Source: Planktothrix sp. PCC 11201 (GTDB lineage Bacteria; Cyanobacteriota; Cyanobacteriia; Cyanobacteriales; Microcoleaceae). From it: a stretch of 57,297 nucleotides of DNA. The notes under the pieces are model-generated. The model ran no database searches, was not told the origin of the DNA, and worked only from the letters and a program-made list of their open reading frames with translations. Where the stretch lies: positions 221,443 to 278,739 of the forward strand of contig NZ_LT797693.1 of NCBI RefSeq assembly GCF_900009135.1. Direction: 5' to 3'. A program made the position numbers and the translations under genes. Position 1 is the first letter of the stretch; each line of letters starts with the position of its first letter. This document shows positions 38,356-57,153 of the stretch, in pieces.

Positions 38356-39912
38356 ATGGAACCTGAATTAATCAAACTTTTTATTAATCTTATTACAAGT
38401 CAAACCGGGTTATTTATTCGTTTGCAGGACTACGGTATACTGGCTGAAAAAATCAAGATCAGAGTTAAATTTTTAAAATTACCAAACCCTCAAGTTTACT
38501 TAAAGTTATTAAGTAACGATAGCCCCCAGAGTCGAGAGGAGTGGAAACAATTAATTCCTTTAATTACAACAATTGAAAGTTATTTTTTTAGAGATCAAGG
38601 TCAAGTTAATCTCTTGCGAACTGTCGTTTTACCAGAGTTAATTAAATTGCGGCAAGACACAAAAAGTTTAACCCTGTGGAGTGCCGGTTGTTCGACAGGA
38701 GAAGAACCCTACACCCTGTCTATTTTGCTTCAACAGTTGATTCCAGACTGGGGAAGTTGGAATCTTCAGATTCTAGGGACTGATGTGAATGAACAGGCCT
38801 TAACAAAAGCCAGTCAAGGCTTATATACAGCTTGGTCTTTTCGCCTGGTGGACTCAGCACTCAAAAATCGATATTTTATGCGACAAGGAGAAAATTGGAA
38901 AATTAATTCGTTGACTCAAAGTTCTGTTCAATTTTTTAATTTGAATTTAGTTAAAGATTCCTATTGTTATCCTAATTATACCCCGATTCAAGATGTGGAT
39001 TTAATTATTTGTCGGAATGTTTTTGTTTATTTTGAAAAAGAATATATTAATCAAGTAATTTCTAAGTTTTTTAATGTTTTAAAACCAGGAGGTTATTTAA
39101 TTACAGGACACGCTGAATTACAAGGCACAGAAAATATTGAAAAATTTCAAGCCAAAATTTATCCTGAATCCATGATTTATCAACGACCTATTGATTTATT
39201 TAAAGAACCCTTGACTATTCCCCCCAGATTAATTATTGATGTGGATAATCGCTGGAATAATCTATTATATTCTTCTCGGAAATATCAGGAGCCATACCCC
39301 AAAACCAGCCAGGGCGAGAATCATCCATCTGAAATTTTCAATTTACCCCAAAAAAGCTTAGAAGAAGCAAAAATATATTTCAAAAACAAACAGTATCCGG
39401 CTGCTATTCAAAAGGCTGAACAATTTATTCAAACTCCTGAATACGCTTTAAAAAATCGGAACTTCACAATTGGAGAACAAGAAAAAAATCATCACCTAAA
39501 ATCCAAAACTAAATTTGATGCCTATTATTTATTAGCACAATCCTGGGCGAATTTAGGACAATATGAACAAGCCATATCCTACTGCAAAAAAGCTATTGAA
39601 ATAGATTCTTTATCTATATTACCCTATTATTTACTCTTACATATAGCTCAGGAACAGGAGGATTTAGTCGGAGCAAAGTTATTGTCCAAACGAATTATTT
39701 ATCTGCTTCCCTCCTCAATTCCAGCCTATCTGGAACTCGCATCAATTTATGAACGGGAAGCAGATCATACCCGAGCAGCTAAAATGTATAGTAACGCTTT
39801 AGCTCTCCTCAAATCCTTACCTCCGACCATGGGGATTGAACATTTAGACGGAGTTACAGCTCAAGATTTAATTGTTTTTTTAGAAAATAAACATTTGGCT
39901 ATTGACCGTTGA
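38356..39912 (+). CDS. cheR: CheR-type chemoreceptor methyltransferase with TPR tail (WspC-like)
   Basis: Methylates glutamates on chemoreceptors using SAM. It has the CheR N-terminal helices (about 1-85), SAM-binding LWSAGCSTGEEPYTL at 107-121, GTDVNEQALTKA near 142 and CRNVFVYFEKEYI near 220. A tetratricopeptide region spans about 385-505 (YYLLAQSWANLGQYEQAISYCKKA). The total of 518 aa matches CheR-TPR fusions like WspC. It is the first gene of a five-gene plus-strand chemosensory operon. No cheB lies nearby. Confidence 0.93.
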   Translation: MEPELIKLFINLITSQTGLFIRLQDYGILAEKIKIRVKFLKLPNPQVYLKLLSNDSPQSREEWKQLIPLITTIESYFFRDQGQVNLLRTVVLPELIKLRQDTKSLTLWSAGCSTGEEPYTLSILLQQLIPDWGSWNLQILGTDVNEQALTKASQGLYTAWSFRLVDSALKNRYFMRQGENWKINSLTQSSVQFFNLNLVKDSYCYPNYTPIQDVDLIICRNVFVYFEKEYINQVISKFFNVLKPGGYLITGHAELQGTENIEKFQAKIYPESMIYQRPIDLFKEPLTIPPRLIIDVDNRWNNLLYSSRKYQEPYPKTSQGENHPSEIFNLPQKSLEEAKIYFKNKQYPAAIQKAEQFIQTPEYALKNRNFTIGEQEKNHHLKSKTKFDAYYLLAQSWANLGQYEQAISYCKKAIEIDSLSILPYYLLLHIAQEQEDLVGAKLLSKRIIYLLPSSIPAYLELASIYEREADHTRAAKMYSNALALLKSLPPTMGIEHLDGVTAQDLIVFLENKHLAIDR

Positions 39913-39972
39913 CTGTTGGCTATTTACTGATAACTATGTACTAATCTGATAACTATTTACTAATCACTGATT
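39908..39972. repeat. TTTACTGATAACT tract between cheR and the cheW gene
   Basis: TTGACTGTTGGC, TTTACTGATAACTATG and CTGATAACTATTTACT units fill the whole 60-bp gap up to the ATG at 39973. No standard ribosome binding site is visible. Confidence 0.7.
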
Positions 39973-41055
39973 ATGGCTTATTTAATTTTTGCACTGAAGT
40001 CAATGTGTTATGCGATCATGGCTTCCGTGGTTGAAGAAATTTTTTTCCTACCGGAATTAACTCCAATTCCCGCCGCTCCTGCTGATTTAGTGGGTTTAAT
40101 TAATTTGCGTGGAGAGTTACTTCCCGTGATTGATTTAACCATTCGATTAGGTTATCCTGAACCGAATTATGCTTTATCTGATAGCGTGATCATTTTAAAA
40201 TTTAATAATATTAGATTAGGGATTATTGTCACCCAAGTTTCTGAAGTCAAGATGATTGCTAACGATGAAATTAAAACTGAATTAGCCTATAATTTTCAAC
40301 AGGAATTTGATCAGATTCACCCCTCTTATTATCTTCAAGGAGTGGCTCAAGTCGATGAGCATTTGGTCATGGTTTTAAATCCAGAAACCCTGATTCAATA
40401 TATTAGTCACTCTCTCCCAGATTTTAATTTAGAGAAAATCAATCCCGAAGGAAACCAATCTCCTATCCATGGAGAATCCTCAAGAAAAAATAATTTTAGA
40501 AAACTACAAAACTATATTTTTTCGACCGATGCGACCCCAGAAGAACGTCAGATTTTTCAAGAGCGGGCTAAAAATTTAAGGCATCCTATTGACGACCAAG
40601 ATTTTGCTGGGTTAGTTCCTTTAGCAGTGATCAGTTTAAATGGAGAATATTTTGGGGTTAACCTAGAGATTATCCGAGAGTTTACAGATATTCATCATAT
40701 TACACCGATTCCTTGTACTCCCCCCCATATTGTGGGAAATATGAATTTACGCGGGGAAATATTAACCTTAGTGAATATTCGGGGTCTCGTGAATTTGCCT
40801 TTACAAACCTCTCAGGTATTATCCAAGGCTATGATTGTTAAAATTAATGATATTGTGGCTGGAATTATAGTAGAGGGAATTTTTGATGTCATATACTTAA
40901 AAGAATCCGAGATTAAAACCATTCCCACGGCAGTTCATCTCAAACAGGATGAATACCTACAAGGGACAGCTTTTTATCAAGACAAAATGATCAGCATTCT
41001 GAATGTGGCAAAAATTATGACTCAAGGAGAATTATTTGTTGATCAAGAGGTTTAA
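39973..41055 (+). CDS. double CheW-domain coupling protein
   Basis: 360 aa with two CheW folds. The first is at about 1-145 ([25 protein letters not shown]). The second is at about 210-355 ([25 protein letters not shown]), joined by a charged linker. CheW couples receptors to CheA. Two domains in one chain could bind the two MCPs encoded next or bridge arrays, and could stand for the separate WspB and WspD of Wsp systems. It ends 63 bp before the first MCP. Confidence 0.93.
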
Positions 41056-41117
41056 TCCCGGATAAGATAGATTTGATGAATTTTATAGTCAACCATCAAC
41101 CATCAAAAAAAAATTAT

Positions 41118-42563
41118 ATGTTTAACAATTTGAAATTAAGAGAAAAGTTGTTGTTAGGGTATAGTATCCCAGTGTTTTTATTTATGGGATTAACCACATT
41201 CGTTTATACCAATATTAGTCAAGTATCTAATACTTTCAAAGAGGCGGAAAGGGTTCAAGAGGTAATTTTAAAAGTCAACGTTATAGAACGTGGTGCTCAG
41301 GGGATGGTTCGCAGCTTAAGGGGATATTTAGCACTAAAAAATCAAGATTTTGTAGCGGAATATAATTCCGGTTTAGTCCTTTATCGAGAAGCGGCTAAAA
41401 CATTAGAATCCTTAGTTTATCGTCCAGAGCAAAAACAACGGTTACAAAAACTTGATAACTTAGTGAATGAATATGATCAAATGGCACAACAAGCTTTTAT
41501 CCTAGCCAATCAAGGAAAATTGTCTGAAGCCATTGAAAAAGCTCGGGGTGGAACTCAATATGTACTCAATTTTGATCGAATTAGCGATGAATTTTCGACA
41601 ACAGAAGCTAGTCTTTTAAATCAGGAAAGAACGAAAACAAAAGAATCATTGGAAGGATTATTGACAATGCTCGTGTTTGGAGCCTTGCTAATTTTGGTTA
41701 CGGTGATTGTTATTGCCCTATTAATTTCGGTTAATATTGGTGGAACTATTCATCAAGCCACACAAGTTATCGCCACTTCTTCCACCGAAATTGCTGCTAC
41801 CCTCGCGGAACAAGAACGAACCGCCAATCAACAAGCAAGTTCTGTTCATGAAACTACAACAACGATGGATGAATTGAGTTCTTCCTCTCAATCAACGGCG
41901 GAACAAGCGGAGTCTGCGACCTATGGAGCTAGACAGGTTTTAGGATTAACAGAAGGAGGAAAACAAGCAGTTAATAGTACCTTAGAAGGGATGGAAAATC
42001 TGCAACAAAAAGTTGAAGCGATTGCCCAACAAATTATCCGTTTAAGTGAACAAACTAATCAAATTGGGAATATTTCTGAATTGGTGAGTGATTTAGCAAA
42101 TCAAACCAATATGTTAGCCCTGAATGCTGCTGTAGAGGCGGTTAGAGCCGGAGAACATGGGAAAGGATTTGCGGTTGTTGCCACTGAAATCCGAAAACTA
42201 GCAGATGAAAGCAAAAAATCTGCCTTAAAAATTAATATCCTTGTTGCTGATATTTTAACTTCCATTAATTCAACGGTCATGGCAACGGAGGAAGGGACAA
42301 AAACTGTTTTATCTAATGCAGAACTTACCCGGGAAACCGCAGATGCTTTTGCTGGGGTTGCGGAAGCGGTGAATAATGTAGTATTGAATAATCAGCAAAT
42401 TTCCCTTAATGTTAAGCAACAAGCGATCGCCATTGGACAGGTTTTAGACGCGATGAATGCTTTAAGTCAGGGCGTGGGTGAAACCGCTAATGGATTAAAC
42501 CAAGCTAAAATTGGAATGCAAAAATTGAATGAAGTCGCGTTAAATTTGAACTCAATTGTTTAA
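41118..42563 (+). CDS. methyl-accepting chemotaxis protein, CHASE3-like sensor
   Basis: 481 aa from the ATG at 41118; an upstream ATG at 41073 adds 15 polar residues from CAACCAT repeat DNA and is less likely. TM1 is at about 11-31 and TM2 at about 185-208. The periplasmic helical domain between them has [14 protein letters not shown], typical of CHASE3. A HAMP domain is not evident: the signalling coiled coil begins right after TM2. The hairpin tip is [27 protein letters not shown]. Confidence 0.93.
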
Positions 42564-42583
42564 TATAGCAATAGCACCGGAAT

Positions 42584-43990
42584 ATGTTAAAATTCAAGGG
42601 TTTAAGGTACTGGATTATTGCCGGTTATTTAATGCCAATTTTGCTCTCTATATTAGTAGCTGGAGTTGTATCCTCCAATGTTGAAAAAGTTCGTAAAACC
42701 ACCCTAGAAGTCCAAACATCTGGTGATGCCATGCAAGCGATTAATAACTTGGCTTTAGCCACAAAAGACTTAACGATTGCCGCCCGTGGATATATTTTAG
42801 TTAAAAATCCTCAATCCCATAAGTTGTATAAAACTGCTGAATCTCTTTATCAAAAAGCATTGGTAGATGTTAAAAGACTCATTCCCAATCCTGAAGTGAT
42901 TCAAGATTTAGATAGTTTAACTGCATCGGTAGATGAATTAGAACAATACTATTCCTCATTATTTAAATTAATTAATGATAATCAAGTTGACCAAGCCTTA
43001 GAGATTTGGAAGCAAGGAAAAGGTACGGAACTATCAACAACGGTTTTGGAGAAAACTCAAAAATTTATCGCTTTAGAAACTCAACAAGTAGAGGTATACC
43101 ATCAACGGCAAAATGATTCTTTAGATCACCTGATGAATGCAGTTTGGATCGGAACCGGAGCAACGGTATTTTGTTCGGTTTTCTTGGGAATTGGACTCAT
43201 TACCCTCATCTTCAAACGGATTAATCAAGAAGCCTCTCAAATTTTGCAAGCCTCTCAAGAATTAGTCAGTATTATGGAATCTCAAGAACGAGTTACTGTT
43301 CAACAGGCAAGTTCAGTGAATGAAACCACAGCTAGTATGGATGAATTAGGGGCATCAAGTCGCCAATCTGCCGAACAAGCGTCAACGGCCTCCGCCGGAG
43401 CTAATCAAGTTTTACTCCTAGCGGGTGGTGAGCAAAAATCATCTTTTCAAACGGGTAATAACTTCAGTTTGAAAATAAAAATGGAACAATTACAACAGCA
43501 AATTATGCGTTTAAGTGAACATTTAGGAAAAATTTATAGTATTACCAATGCGGTCACGGATTTGGCAAGTCAAACTAATATGTTGGCTTTAAATGCTTCT
43601 GTAGAAGCTGTTAGAGCCGGAGAAAATGGTAAAGGATTTGGGGTTATAGCATCTGAAATTCGTAAACTAGCCGATCAAAGTCGCAAATCAGCCGAAAAAA
43701 TTAGTTCAATTGTTACCGATATTCAAATAGCGACTAATTCAACCGTGAGGGTGACAGAGGAAGGCTCGAAATCCGTTGAAGATATTGTTCATGCGATTAA
43801 TGATGTTGCGATTAATTTACAACAAATTTCCCTGAATACCAGACAGCAATCGATTGCGGTTGAACAAGTGGTTGATGCCATGAGTAACTTAAATTTTGTT
43901 TCAACAGAAATGGCAACCAGCATCAACCAAACCAAACAGGGAGTTCAAAAGTTAAATGAAACTGCCAAAAATCTGCAAACTCTGGTTTAA
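42584..43990 (+). CDS. second methyl-accepting chemotaxis protein
   Basis: 468 aa, paralogous to the preceding MCP (20-bp gap). It has TM1 at about 8-28, a CHASE3-like periplasmic domain with [16 protein letters not shown]2 at about 185-207 and no evident HAMP. The tip is [25 protein letters not shown]. Against the first MCP, the C-terminal helix arm is 14 residues (two heptads) shorter. The matching N-terminal arm contains a non-helical-looking Gly/Ser/Asn stretch ([13 protein letters not shown]), so it may belong to a shorter signalling class. Confidence 0.93.
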
Positions 43991-44029
43991 TCAGTCAAAA
44001 TTGAATTACACTGACAGGATCAAACACTT

Positions 44030-46450
44030 ATGATGATTGAAGACGATGAGCTGCGGGAAGTTTTTAAAACCGCTAGTGAAGAACATTTACAGAATTTAGA
44101 TGAAGGATTATTATATCTGGAAAAAAATCCCAATGATGCAGCTAAACTAGAAGAATTATTGCGAGAAGCCCATAGCCTGAAAGGGGATGCGGGGATGTTA
44201 GGGGTCAAAGATGTTGCCACTTTATCCCATCAAATCGAACACCTATTAGGGGGGTTAAAACGTCAAGAAACGACTCTCACAGTAGATTTAGTGGATCGAA
44301 TTTCCTATGGAATTGATGCGATCCGTCAATTAGTTGATGCGGCGGTGACCGGAGAACCCTGTGGGATTAATGCCTTTCACAGTTTAGCCTATTTGATGGG
44401 GGCTAAACCCGAAACACCGACGGATGCAATTTCAGCCATACCGACGCTAACCCCCGAACCTGCTCCCCCTGCCACCCCTGCTCCCCCCGCTCCCCCCGCT
44501 CCCGATGAAACCCCAATTCCTGTAGCGACCGTGGCTGAAGCGATGAATCCTACGCCTCCGGTGACGGCCAGTCGCGACTCTGCTTATAAAATTGAAACCA
44601 TTCGAGTCCCGACGCGTAATTTAGATGGGTTAATGACTCAAACGGGAGAATTAACAGTAACAAAAATTCGGATTGCCCACCGGTTAAATGAAATTGAAGA
44701 CCTGGTGAGTTTATGGGAAGAATGGAGTCGAGATGCGTTTGTGAATCGGTTTGTAGTTCATGACCTAGAAAATAACCTCAATCGTCATATTTCCGAAAAG
44801 GGAACAATCGGGCAACTCCAGAATTATTATCATCGTAGTACGGAACGTTTAGAACAGTTAGGATCTTTAATTAATCAACTGAGAAATACCTTTTCTGAAG
44901 ATATTGCCCGTTTAGATATTATTAGTGATGAACTTGAAGATGGGGTCAGAACCTTACGTTTATTACCCCTAGCAACTATTTTTAATTTGTTTCCTCGCAT
45001 GGTACGCGATTTAGCGCGGCAACAAGGAAAAGAAATTGAATTAGTGATTTCTGGTGGAGAAACCCGTGCGGATAAACGGATTTTAGAAGAAATGAAAGAT
45101 CCGTTGATGCACATTTTAAGAAATGCGATTGATCATGGGATTGAAACTCCAGAAGAACGGCAAACTTCAGGGAAAACGGCGATCGCTAAAATCGAGTTAC
45201 GGGGGTACCAAACCGCGACCCACGTTGTCTTAGAAGTTTGTGATGATGGTCGGGGATTAGATATTGAAAAAATCAAACAAACTGCTTTAAAACGGGGAAT
45301 TTGCCAACAGGAAGAATTATTGGGAATGACTCCACAACAAATCCATAGTTTAATTTTTGCCCCAGGTTTTACCACCCGAACGGTGGTCACCGAAGTATCG
45401 GGACGGGGAGTAGGAATGGATGTGGTGCGAACTAATGTGGAACATTTAAAAGGCATTATTCAAGTTGAATCTTCCCCAGGAAAGGGTTGTTTATTTCGGA
45501 TTCAATTGGGAACTACCTTAGCAACGGCTCATGTTTTAATTGTATCGGTTCAGGGAATTTCCTATGCCATTCCTGTCGAATTTGTCCAAATGACGCGACT
45601 GGTTCTAGCTGATGAAATTTTTGCGATTGAAGGCCGAGAAACGATTATTTTTGAAGACCAACCAATTTCCGTAGCTCAACTAGCTGATTTATTAGAAATT
45701 CGTGGGATTCCCCCTCAGATTGAAGCGGAACCTACGGTTTCTAAAGAATCCAAATCTCGTTTTTCTATTTTCCCATCTTTTATTGACAAAAATCCCAGTT
45801 CTTCAACGATGGATATTGCTTCACCCTGCATTATTTTAAAAGTGGGAGAAGAAAAATTAGGATTATTTGTTGATGCTTTAATTGATGAGCAGGATGTGGT
45901 TTTAAAACCTCAAAGCCAACTATTAAAACGGGTCAGAAATGTGGCGGGAGCCACGATTTTAGGAACGGGAGAAGTCTGTATTATTTTAAGTCCTCAAGAT
46001 TTAATTAAATCCATTCGCAAACAAGCGGGTGTGATCAGTTCCCCCATCGTCCGATCTCCTCTAATTATTCAGAATCATTCTGCTGTTAAACCGGTTATTT
46101 TATTAGTCGAAGATTCGATCGCCACTCGCACCCAAGAAAAACGAATTTTAGAAGCCGCTGGCTATGAAGTGGTGACGGCGGTGGATGGATTAGATGGGTT
46201 TAATAAACTGAGCACTCGTGCTTTTGATGCGGTGGTTTCTGATATTCAGATGCCTAATTTAGATGGGTTAAGTTTAGCCAAAAAAATTCGACAGCATCAT
46301 GAATATAGAGAACTACCGATTATTTTGGTCACTTCCCTAGCTTCCGATGAAGATAAGCGCAAAGGTGCAGAAGCGGGGGCAAATGCTTATATTACTAAGG
46401 CATCTTTCAATCAAGAAGTTTTGATCGAGACCCTAAAAAGATTAGTTTGA
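44030..46450 (+). CDS. cheA: hybrid CheA histidine kinase with C-terminal receiver
   Basis: 806 aa. An Hpt domain with phosphorylatable His48 (REAHSLKGDAG) is followed by a proline-rich linker at about 143-165 encoded by a CTGCTCCCC repeat. Next come the dimerisation and HATPase domain (HILRNAIDHGIE N-box, DDGRGLD, GRGVGMDVVR), then a CheW-like domain (about 485-660). The receiver spans about 690-806, with Asp738 in SDIQMPNLDG and Lys790 in ITKASF. This Hpt-kinase-CheW-REC order is that of WspE, PilL and FrzE. It is the last gene of the operon; output must leave through the REC domain or an unlinked regulator. Confidence 0.95.
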   Translation: MMIEDDELREVFKTASEEHLQNLDEGLLYLEKNPNDAAKLEELLREAHSLKGDAGMLGVKDVATLSHQIEHLLGGLKRQETTLTVDLVDRISYGIDAIRQLVDAAVTGEPCGINAFHSLAYLMGAKPETPTDAISAIPTLTPEPAPPATPAPPAPPAPDETPIPVATVAEAMNPTPPVTASRDSAYKIETIRVPTRNLDGLMTQTGELTVTKIRIAHRLNEIEDLVSLWEEWSRDAFVNRFVVHDLENNLNRHISEKGTIGQLQNYYHRSTERLEQLGSLINQLRNTFSEDIARLDIISDELEDGVRTLRLLPLATIFNLFPRMVRDLARQQGKEIELVISGGETRADKRILEEMKDPLMHILRNAIDHGIETPEERQTSGKTAIAKIELRGYQTATHVVLEVCDDGRGLDIEKIKQTALKRGICQQEELLGMTPQQIHSLIFAPGFTTRTVVTEVSGRGVGMDVVRTNVEHLKGIIQVESSPGKGCLFRIQLGTTLATAHVLIVSVQGISYAIPVEFVQMTRLVLADEIFAIEGRETIIFEDQPISVAQLADLLEIRGIPPQIEAEPTVSKESKSRFSIFPSFIDKNPSSSTMDIASPCIILKVGEEKLGLFVDALIDEQDVVLKPQSQLLKRVRNVAGATILGTGEVCIILSPQDLIKSIRKQAGVISSPIVRSPLIIQNHSAVKPVILLVEDSIATRTQEKRILEAAGYEVVTAVDGLDGFNKLSTRAFDAVVSDIQMPNLDGLSLAKKIRQHHEYRELPIILVTSLASDEDKRKGAEAGANAYITKASFNQEVLIETLKRLV
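44458..44512 (+). repeat. CTGCTCCCC-type repeat inside cheA
   Basis: Tandem GCTCCCCCTGCC/GCTCCCCCCGC units encode the linker PAPPATPAPPAPPAP. The same DNA motif occurs in non-coding DNA at 7-40. The repeat is therefore expressed as a Pro/Ala hinge between Hpt and kinase core. Confidence 0.8.
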
Positions 46451-50630: not shown

Positions 50631-50665
50631 TGCCGAGGATAACTGAAAAAGCCTATTCCCCCTTC

Positions 50666-50681
50666 TGTGATTTGTGTCACA
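50666..50681 (+). promoter_or_regulatory. CRP-type (SyCRP1-like) binding site
   Basis: TGTGA-TTTGTG-TCACA is a perfect TGTGAN6TCACA palindrome, the consensus of E. coli CRP and of cyanobacterial SyCRP1. The downstream TATTAT (50702-50707) predicts a start near 50714. That places the site centre at about -40.5, the class II activator position. No -35 hexamer is seen, as expected for an activated promoter. The target would be the DHp gene at 50831. Confidence 0.72.
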
Positions 50682-50701
50682 ACATTAGCTCAATTTTAAA
50701 C

Positions 50702-50746
50702 TATTATTTCAGATGTACCAACATCACAGAAGCTTGTGATCAAGCT
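50702..50746 (+). promoter_or_regulatory. -10 box and leader hairpin of the DHp gene
   Basis: TATTAT at 50702-50707 is the likely -10 box. The leader contains AGCTTG-TGAT-CAAGCT (50731-50746). ATCACAGAAG (50723-50732) is the exact complement of CTTCTGTGAT (50662-50671) in the CRP site, a 10-bp inverted repeat spanning the promoter. The ATG at 50831 has GGAGGAG just upstream (50818-50824). Confidence 0.5.
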
Positions 50747-50830
50747 CATCGAAGTTAGGAGATTAACTTCACTGGGTTTTTGGGGTCAATCCCCGATGAT
50801 TAGATTGAGTAAATCAGGAGGAGTGAGCCA

Positions 50831-51379
50831 ATGCCACCGCTAAATCTAGTCTTAAATTTAGAGCAAGACTTTACCACTGTTCAGGAGATGATCACCGAAA
50901 TTCATCATTATTTAAGAACTCCTGTTTCTATTATTGCATCCTCATCTTATTTGCTTCAAGTTTCTCTGAGCCAACAGAAAAAATCGTCTCAGTCTCCCTC
51001 GAAATATATCGCTCTGATACAAGATGCGGCTCAATGTTTGGAAACCAGTTGTCATCGGATGGTCACCAGAATGAATCAAGCTAATTTTGATAGTTGGGCT
51101 TTAAATCGGATTCGTTTTTATTTGGATAAAATGATCTATTTTTGCCAAACCGTTTTGGGAAATTCAGAAACGATTTCCCATTCAAACTATCACCATAAAC
51201 TCATGGATGAGACTGAAAAATATGAAATCATTAATTTAGTTGTGGGTTTAAATCAATGGGCAATGCAGATGACAGATGTGTTAAGTTCAGATTCTTTTCA
51301 CAATTATGTTCAACAGTTTTCTGAAGGTCTATTTATCAAGTCTCGCTTTAATGATTTTGAGGAGTATCAATCGGCATGA
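50831..51379 (+). CDS. orphan protein with histidine-kinase DHp-like segment
   Basis: 182 aa; I do not recognise a named family. Residues 20-43 (EIHHYLRTPVSIIASSSYLLQ) closely resemble a histidine-kinase H-box (normally H-E-L-R-T-P), with His25/His26 as phosphoacceptor candidates and Tyr in place of Glu. A second helix with LIQDAAQCLETSCHRMVTRMNQ would complete a DHp hairpin. No HATPase domain or receiver follows; residues 95-182 are helical and Trp/Phe-containing. It could be a phosphotransfer or kinase-inhibitor protein. It is monocistronic behind a CRP-type site. Confidence 0.75.
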   Translation: MPPLNLVLNLEQDFTTVQEMITEIHHYLRTPVSIIASSSYLLQVSLSQQKKSSQSPSKYIALIQDAAQCLETSCHRMVTRMNQANFDSWALNRIRFYLDKMIYFCQTVLGNSETISHSNYHHKLMDETEKYEIINLVVGLNQWAMQMTDVLSSDSFHNYVQQFSEGLFIKSRFNDFEEYQSA

Positions 51380-51418
51380 ATATAGAAATCTCTAATTTTA
51401 ATTATAATATAAAAAATA

Positions 51419-51443
51419 AAGACATGGTTTAATACCATGTCTT
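51419..51443 (-). terminator. intrinsic terminator of thrC-moaD-like operon
   Basis: AAGACATGGT (51419-51428), loop TTAAT and ACCATGTCTT (51434-51443) form a 10-bp stem. Read on the minus strand it is followed by TTTATTTTTTATA, ending the operon. The plus-strand side lacks a good U-tract. Confidence 0.85.
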
Positions 51444-51473
51444 CGGAAAATTTCTATTAATATTTCAACTGAA

Positions 51474-51749
51474 TCAACCACCAGCAACCGCCGGAACAAT
51501 ACTAACTTCATCCCCAGACTTCAGTTCGGTTTTTGTTCCTTCTAAGAAGCGAATATCTTCACTATTCACATAGAAATTCAAGAATCTCCGTGGCTCTCCG
51601 CTATCATCACAGAGACTTTTTTTAATCCCTGGACAACTAACTTCTAAGGAATCAATTAATTCAGAAACGCTAGAACCTGTACATTCAATTGTTGCTTGAT
51701 TATTAGTAAACTTTTGCAGGGGTGTGGGAATTAAAACTTTAACGGTCAT
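51474..51749 (-). CDS. MoaD/ThiS-like ubiquitin-fold sulfur-carrier protein
   Basis: 91-aa beta-grasp protein ending in VPAVAGG. The C-terminal Gly-Gly is the feature that is adenylated and thiocarboxylated in MoaD, ThiS and Cys[14 protein letters not shown] at the N-terminus and the [16 protein letters not shown] end match CysO/MoaD-type proteins. It lies 64 bp downstream of thrC on the same strand and before a shared terminator. No moaE, thiG or MoeB-like activator is adjacent. Pairing with a PLP enzyme recalls CysO-CysM of Mycobacterium. Confidence 0.9.
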
Positions 51750-56650: not shown

Positions 56651-57153
56651 TCGGAAAAATGGGTTTAAAACCCCTAAGTTCTACTTAGGCTTTTTATTGT
56701 AAACCTTTGTTAAAATATCAGCCAATCTTGTGCCCAAAGATATAGTATAAAAAATCAGGCGAGAGGTAAGGCAATGTTAGTATTTGAGTTCAAAACTTAC
56801 GGAAAAGCCAGTCAGATTGAAGCAGTAAAGGAAGCAATTCGTACAGCACAATTTGTCCGCTCTGTGTCGATATACCAGCAAAGAATGCTCTAGTTGCGGT
56901 GAAATTGTTCAGAAAACGCTATCCACTAGAACCCATGTTTGTAGGTGCGGTTGTGTCATGGATAGAGATGAAAATGCAGCTAGAAATATCCTGAGTCGAG
57001 GATTGAGTACCGTAGGGCATACGGGAACTTTCATGCTAGACATGAGCAACGCTTTGGGAGAATCGACCTCTACTCGGGCTGGAGAAATCCTGTTCGAGCA
57101 AGTTGGCTCTATGAACAAAGAATCCCCACGCCTTTAGGCACAGGGAGTGTCAA
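56651..57153 (+). mobile_element. internally deleted tnpB element
   Basis: The left end has GGGTTT-AA-AACCCC (56661-56674) and the hairpin CCTAAGT-TCT-ACTTAGG (56673-56689), matching in layout the left end of the element at 1611. The right end ends with GTCAA at 57149-57153, after a CCCC-ACGCC-TTTA-GGC-ACA-GGG hairpin (about 57124-57145). The body keeps only the two ends of tnpB. At about 500 bp it is a non-autonomous derivative that could be mobilised by transposase in trans. Confidence 0.8.
56774..57137 (+). pseudogene. tnpB with large internal deletion
   Basis: The ATG at 56774 encodes a TnpB N-terminus (MLVFEFKTYGKASQIEAVKEA, 29 residues) that continues into SVSIYQQRML and a stop. A different frame then carries the C-terminus (YTSKECSSCGEIVQK, CGCVMDRDENAARNIL) up to 57137. 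About 300 internal codons, including RuvC-I and RuvC-II, are gone. The deletion joint is near 56858-56875 and is out of frame, so no active nuclease is made. Confidence 0.88.

Follow-up and report, generated by a model that had tools for sequence, protein, structure and literature searches.

A CRP-type site upstream of a Planktothrix gene for a probable remote HisKA relative with a possible role in receiver dephosphorylation

Analysis of a 57,297-nucleotide stretch of the Planktothrix sp. PCC 11201 genome (hereafter the window) revealed a gene for a 182-residue DHp-like protein placed behind a perfect CRP-type palindrome (Table 1). In the reading that we tentatively prefer, a possible rather than a probable one, gene and site would together form a Planktothrix-specific part in which a kinase-derived DHp remnant, regulated by cAMP-CRP, acts as a phosphatase or sink for receiver domains. 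That the protein works as a kinase is unlikely, because the acidic residue essential to kinase activity is a tyrosine and no ATPase domain was found.

Table 1. Coordinates in the window of the gene and of the elements around it
Feature	Position	Strand	Remarks
Perfect CRP-type palindrome TGTGATTTGTGTCACA	50666..50681	+	Pattern scan; perfect site also at 5 of 7 orthologous loci
TATTAT, -10-like box	50702..50707	+	20 nt after the CRP site; same gap at 3 of 5 perfect-site loci
Conserved 118-nt leader	50713..50830	+	5' end close to or at the presumed transcription start, about 50714
Second, weaker CRP-like element TGTGATCAAGCTCATC	50735..50750	+	Inside the leader, inferred; 2 mismatches
Third, poor CRP-like element GGAGATTAACTTCACT	50758-50773		Recurs at -73/-74 in all seven leaders, with 3 mismatches
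Shine-Dalgarno-like AGGAGGAG	50816..50823	+	Precedes the ATG
Gene of the 182-aa DHp-like protein	50831..51379	+	H-box residues 25-31, HHYLRTP (His26, Tyr27, Thr30)
Terminator-like hairpin with T-run	51418..51444	-	Inferred 3' end of the convergent ORF transcript; bounds the unit

The palindrome matches TGTGAN6TCACA at every defined base, as the original prediction had stated, and is the sole perfect match in the window, where 0.04 are expected; at least one perfect site was present in 4 of 100 dinucleotide shuffles of the window. The whole genome holds five palindromic perfect places versus one for a reversed-pattern control, and the ten Planktothrix genomes together hold 69 versus 20 control places, with one genome (G009) showing the reverse of the genus trend at 4 true places versus 11 control places. 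Cyanobacterial CRP promoters mostly place their TAN3T -10 box some 22 bp beyond the site, according to the part of the published account used here (PMC2633013), close to the 20 nt seen in the window. With the transcription start assumed to lie 7 nt beyond TATTAT, at 50714, the centre of the palindrome falls at -40.5. No sigma-70-like promoter was listed by the promoter scan on the + strand at the TATTAT region, which is consistent with the absence of a -35 box. Given this assumed start, the sequences of the window and of two relatives fit a class II layout, with a centre near -41.5, a -10 box and no -35 box. The class II spacing proposed originally may apply to the window but is not a general rule, being seen in three of the seven orthologues. 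The promoter claim is well founded as a claim about sequence.

A stronger argument than these counts for the site being more than a chance match is its conservation across genomes. Perfect sites lie at -165, -165, -165, -163 and -219 from the ATG in five of the seven gene-bearing Planktothrix genomes, and their central bases differ between two lineages. The TAN3T box at a gap of 20 is confined to the window's clade, and the spacing from site to box in G005 and G008 differs from that clade. Compared with G008, the site of G005 stands 56 nt farther from the ATG, with an insertion between site and leader (locus L004). With an unchanged start, this 56-nt insertion would put the site at about -94.5, near a location suitable for class I activation in E. 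coli. The conservation of the site in relatives, proposed as a check of the original prediction, fails at the two remaining loci, G002 and G003 (L006, L007), where no perfect CRP site was found upstream of the gene and the DNA upstream of the leader looks unrelated to that at the other loci. The promoter region of these two genomes looks replaced as far as the neighbourhood of the 5' edge of the leader, as though by a natural promoter swap.

The leader itself is 118-119 nt long at all seven loci and can be aligned with at most one indel in each. When the window's clade is compared with the other loci, it diverges by 20-34%, and synonymous sites, with the G007 orthologue left out, diverge by 43-57%. 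In the G002/G003 alignment, read by eye, the 5' edge of the leader falls at about 50713-50714, which fits transcription starting there. A CRP-like element with 2-3 mismatches also recurs at -96 or -97 at seven of the seven loci. The leader elements may be further CRP contacts, or may be chance matches held in place by the conservation of the leader; the window contains 26 CRP-like places with at most 2 mismatches.

With respect to a SyCRP1-type regulon, the genome encodes a CRP homologue (locus L021) in which a cNMP-binding domain and a Crp-type HTH domain both score over the Pfam cut-offs. This protein resembles catabolite gene activators of solved structure as well as further members of the CRP family, and it is found in all ten genomes of the genus at 96-100% identity. 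Its recognition helix, ARETVTRVL, is CRP-like, and we take the RETVTR within it to correspond to the helix with which E. coli CAP contacts DNA. The genome also shows 22 matches to the Guanylate_cyc domain (PF00211). Elsewhere in the same genome, another perfect CRP site, TGTGATCATCATCACA, was observed at G000:C11:111322-111337 (L014; L018:8323-8338); it precedes a DUF2949 ORF by about 140 bp, and a divergent ORF starts about 210 bp on its other side. The 16-mer occurs in nine of the ten genomes, its gene context having been read in the window's genome alone, and the site with its DUF2949 ORF may belong to the core targets of the Planktothrix CRP.

As the next ORF downstream of the gene (51474-51749, - strand) is convergent, the gene is apparently monocistronic and its promoter has apparently a single target, which bears out the claim that only one gene lies downstream of the promoter. 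Orthologues are present in seven of the ten Planktothrix genomes. Outside the genus, none was found at E ≤ 1e-5 in a sample of 290 other genomes of the class, and a search of 49 other relatives returned two matches at E ≤ 0.001, both of them kinases. Genomes G001, G004 and G009 have the same junction, recognized by eye from an rsmG-like ORF and the convergent small ORF, without the gene; G004 is only 73% complete, with the junction there intact. This absence indicates that the gene is dispensable. The six readable copies all encode 182 residues with no indel or stop, and dN/dS over 15 orthologue pairs is 0.09-0.41, indicating purifying selection. The count is six of seven because G007 (P. paucivesiculata; L003/L012) was excluded from the protein counts and from dN/dS, an assembly gap (N) at L012:3001-3690 covering the H-box and making it unreadable. 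Conservation of the gene among relatives, a further check that had been suggested, is thus borne out within the genus: as judged from sequence, the gene is kept by selection where present and, among the genomes searched, is limited to Planktothrix.

The best profile match of the protein is to Pfam HisKA (PF00512), at 18.4 bits versus a gathering score of 26.9, and HisKA reached E ≤ 0.1 in only two of six family members. NCBIfam returned only two matches at E ≤ 10, both kinase models (E 0.0009 and 0.0016) and far below their cut-offs. No ATPase (HATPase_c/CA) or receiver model of either collection matched at E ≤ 10, and neither Hpt (PF01627) nor HPTransfase, which we take to be PF10090, matched at E ≤ 10, nor at E ≤ 0.1 in the six members, within the limits that HMMER filters place on weak matches. 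The search of HisKA and Hpt models called for by the original prediction therefore favors HisKA, but below the cut-off, and finds no Hpt. The genome itself contains 106 HisKA matches, and kinases with long reading frames are abundant in it; no own-genome kinase matched the family profile at E ≤ 10.

Profile-profile comparisons with sets of own-genome kinases were conducted using hhalign with 200 column shuffles each, and in all four comparisons 0 of 200 shuffles reached the observed score. Against 21 short-frame kinases the score was 32.8 (shuffle maximum 20.8); against 19 of these, leaving out L124 and L125, which had been fetched as look-alikes of query hits, it was 33.6 (27.4); against all 51 kinases read it was 33.5 (25.9), with 22.3 for the reversed profile; and against the 30 best HisKA kinases it was 28.7 (27.4), a small margin. 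The hhalign probabilities are just 49-53%, and 18% for the 30 best. The set of 21 was drawn from 26 own-genome HisKA matches in frames of at most 520 aa, five weak partial ones being dropped, and was picked after the 30 best-scoring kinases had given 18%. A set of 17 kinases found with the query itself, and hence selection-biased, scored 67.8 versus 25.0 in 59 shuffles, with a probability of 96.7%; this biased alignment spans residues 20-114, reaching the second DHp helix and the FC..L segment. Residues 115-182 have no assigned relative, and residues 85-182 alone give an hhalign probability of 1%.

In addition, 33 of 56 non-orthologous weak matches in relatives were read, comprising 23 loci saved automatically and 10 hand-picked as their ranges cover the H-box. 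Among the former, 14 are kinases whose H-box histidine aligns with residue 26 or 27, and the remaining nine are not kinases in register; the hand-picked ones are all kinases in register (10 of 10). Taken by the shuffle test, the relationship to HisKA, with the H-box histidine in register, goes beyond chance, and we regard it as probably real but remote.

The original prediction had described an H-box look-alike, HHYLRTP, in a protein with no ATPase or receiver domain. Both features are seen, but a working H-box of the common type is not supported. While His26 and Thr30 are invariant in six of the six readable orthologues, the acidic residue that follows the histidine is replaced in all six by Tyr27, and Pro31 of the H-box is Ser in G002 and G003. 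Own-genome kinases that were read carry Glu or Asp after the histidine in 50 of 51 cases. At the other end of the protein, the C-terminal GLNQWAMQMTDVLSS is near-invariant among the orthologues. In the portions of the sources consulted, the acidic residue is needed for kinase activity and the Thr or Asn for phosphatase activity (PMC3510030), the phosphatase motif is given as E/DxxT/N, and phosphatase activity was assayed on the isolated DHp of HK853 (PMC5727384). With the acidic position of E/DxxT/N lost, efficient phosphatase chemistry may be spoiled here as well.

Predicted structures are in keeping with a helical protein. The monomer model has four long helices at low confidence (pLDDT 61), and models from three sequences are all helical, likewise with low confidence. 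Foldseek gave no match at E ≤ 0.001, the folds listed being mostly generic helical bundles; its non-significant rows include two CheA P1 (Hpt) structures at E 0.67.

A link between the DHp-like protein and a chemosensory operon in the same window had also been considered in the original prediction, on the premise that the operon lacks an obvious output partner. The operon (38356-46450) comprises a CheR with TPR, a double CheW, two MCP-like ORFs (called MCP by eye) and a CheA. That premise is weak because the CheA (44030-46450), which has Hpt and CheW domains, carries a C-terminal receiver of its own, and we found no evidence here for the link. Further along the window, the ORF at 56853-57137 presumably resembles the zinc-ribbon end of an IS605-type TnpB.

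Under the preferred reading, a monocistronic gene would be expressed under a SyCRP1-type cAMP-CRP regulator, and its product would go back to a cyanobacterial HisKA kinase, one closest to the receiver-HisKA type, of which the DHp part remained after a cut inside the former ATP-binding domain, the fragment being kept by selection. cAMP-CRP would raise transcription; the protein, from which no self-phosphorylation is expected, would form a helical bundle and bind one or more receiver domains; and receiver phosphate would be removed by a phosphatase or buffered by a sink, such that cAMP damps a two-component pathway. That no receiver is encoded adjacent to the gene counts against this, as do Ser31 in G002 and G003, the lost acidic residue of E/DxxT/N, the two loci without a perfect site, the restriction of the -10 spacing to the window's clade, the sub-threshold HisKA scores and low hhalign probabilities, the unassigned residues 115-182 and the dispensability of the gene. 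We consider a phosphatase or sink the least strained guess, with a role as kinase partner close behind. The narrower proposition, that a kinase was trimmed and its kinase residue disabled within one genus to give a natural, free-standing receiver phosphatase or sink of DHp origin that is produced when cAMP demands it, seems unlikely as a whole.

As a kinase partner or inhibitor, the protein would join a full-length HisKA kinase in mixed dimers or bundles and lower or redirect the activity of that kinase, leaving the receiver untouched, a role that we judge somewhat unlikely. DHp domains dimerise, the many HisKA matches of the genome would be available for pairing, the eroded chemistry flanking the histidine (Tyr27, and Ser31 in two species) would suit a scaffold, and the near-invariant GLNQWAMQMTDVLSS is what an interface might look like. 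Nevertheless, the failure of the family profile to match any own-genome kinase leaves no obvious pairing partner, and the invariance of His26 and Thr30 would be unexpected if packing alone mattered. The same invariant histidine might instead serve a phosphotransferase shuttle of the Spo0B/ChpT type, taking phosphate from the receiver of a hybrid kinase and handing it to another receiver. Abundant long-frame kinases and the two CheA P1 structures among the non-significant Foldseek rows speak for such a shuttle, as does an H-box histidine kept without kinase function, which ChpT also shows in the part of its description used here (PMC3433190). Tyr27 in place of the acidic residue, the lack of any Hpt or HPTransfase match and of a hybrid kinase or regulator adjoining the gene make it quite unlikely, and ChpT, by the same partial account, has an alpha/beta Bergerat-type domain where the rest of the present protein is predicted, at low confidence, to be helical (PMC3433190).

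Two further explanations would dispense with a DHp function. A helical protein unrelated to HisKA, regulated by CRP and carrying HHYLRTP by chance, would agree with the sub-threshold Pfam score, the generic bundles listed by Foldseek and the 30 best HisKA kinases scoring barely above the best of 200 shuffles. We consider it quite unlikely, as the in-register alignments score above every one of 200 shuffles in each of the four comparisons with own-genome kinases and the query-selected kinases, a biased set, align into the second DHp helix and FC..L segment. Very unlikely is a decaying kinase fragment that is transcribed from an old promoter with little function. The divergent H-box and missing domains, the absence of the gene from three of ten genomes and the loss of the site at two of seven loci would suit decay; the uninterrupted 182 codons of the six readable orthologues, the dN/dS values and the conserved leader argue against it.

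If the phosphatase or sink reading is true, a kinase fragment has become a stand-alone regulator and a route for cAMP into the two-component pathways of Planktothrix, and a direct connection between the cAMP-CRP system and two-component signaling was invented inside one cyanobacterial genus. Natural comparisons are on offer between relatives that carry the gene at this junction and those that lack it there, and between orthologues with and without the CRP site. The signaling claim is plausible in outline, and what it concerns is a variant of known parts confined to one genus rather than a system of a new kind.

Finally, each of these parts has a known counterpart. The SyCRP1 regulon of Synechocystis shares TGTGAN6TCACA followed by a -10 box, about 22 bp downstream there and with a gap of 20 here; the targets named in the part of that report used here are pilus operons and others, with no gene like the present one among them (PMC2633013). 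The isolated DHp of HK853 is likewise a DHp without CA, with phosphatase activity assayed on a receiver (PMC5727384, in part); it is engineered and has E/DxxT/N intact, whereas the present gene is natural and has lost the acidic residue. ChpT and Spo0B are kinase-like proteins that keep the H-box without kinase catalysis and possibly work alike, but ChpT, as partly described, retains a CA-like alpha/beta domain (PMC3433190), in contrast to the roughly 100 predicted-helix residues and missing HPTransfase match found here. Closest in sequence are the HisKA DHp domains of cyanobacterial receiver-HisKA kinases, which share the H-box register, the length of the two-helix hairpin and, when query-selected kinases are compared, similarity over residues 20-114, and from which the Planktothrix protein differs in having no receiver or CA found, a tyrosine after the histidine and a score below threshold.
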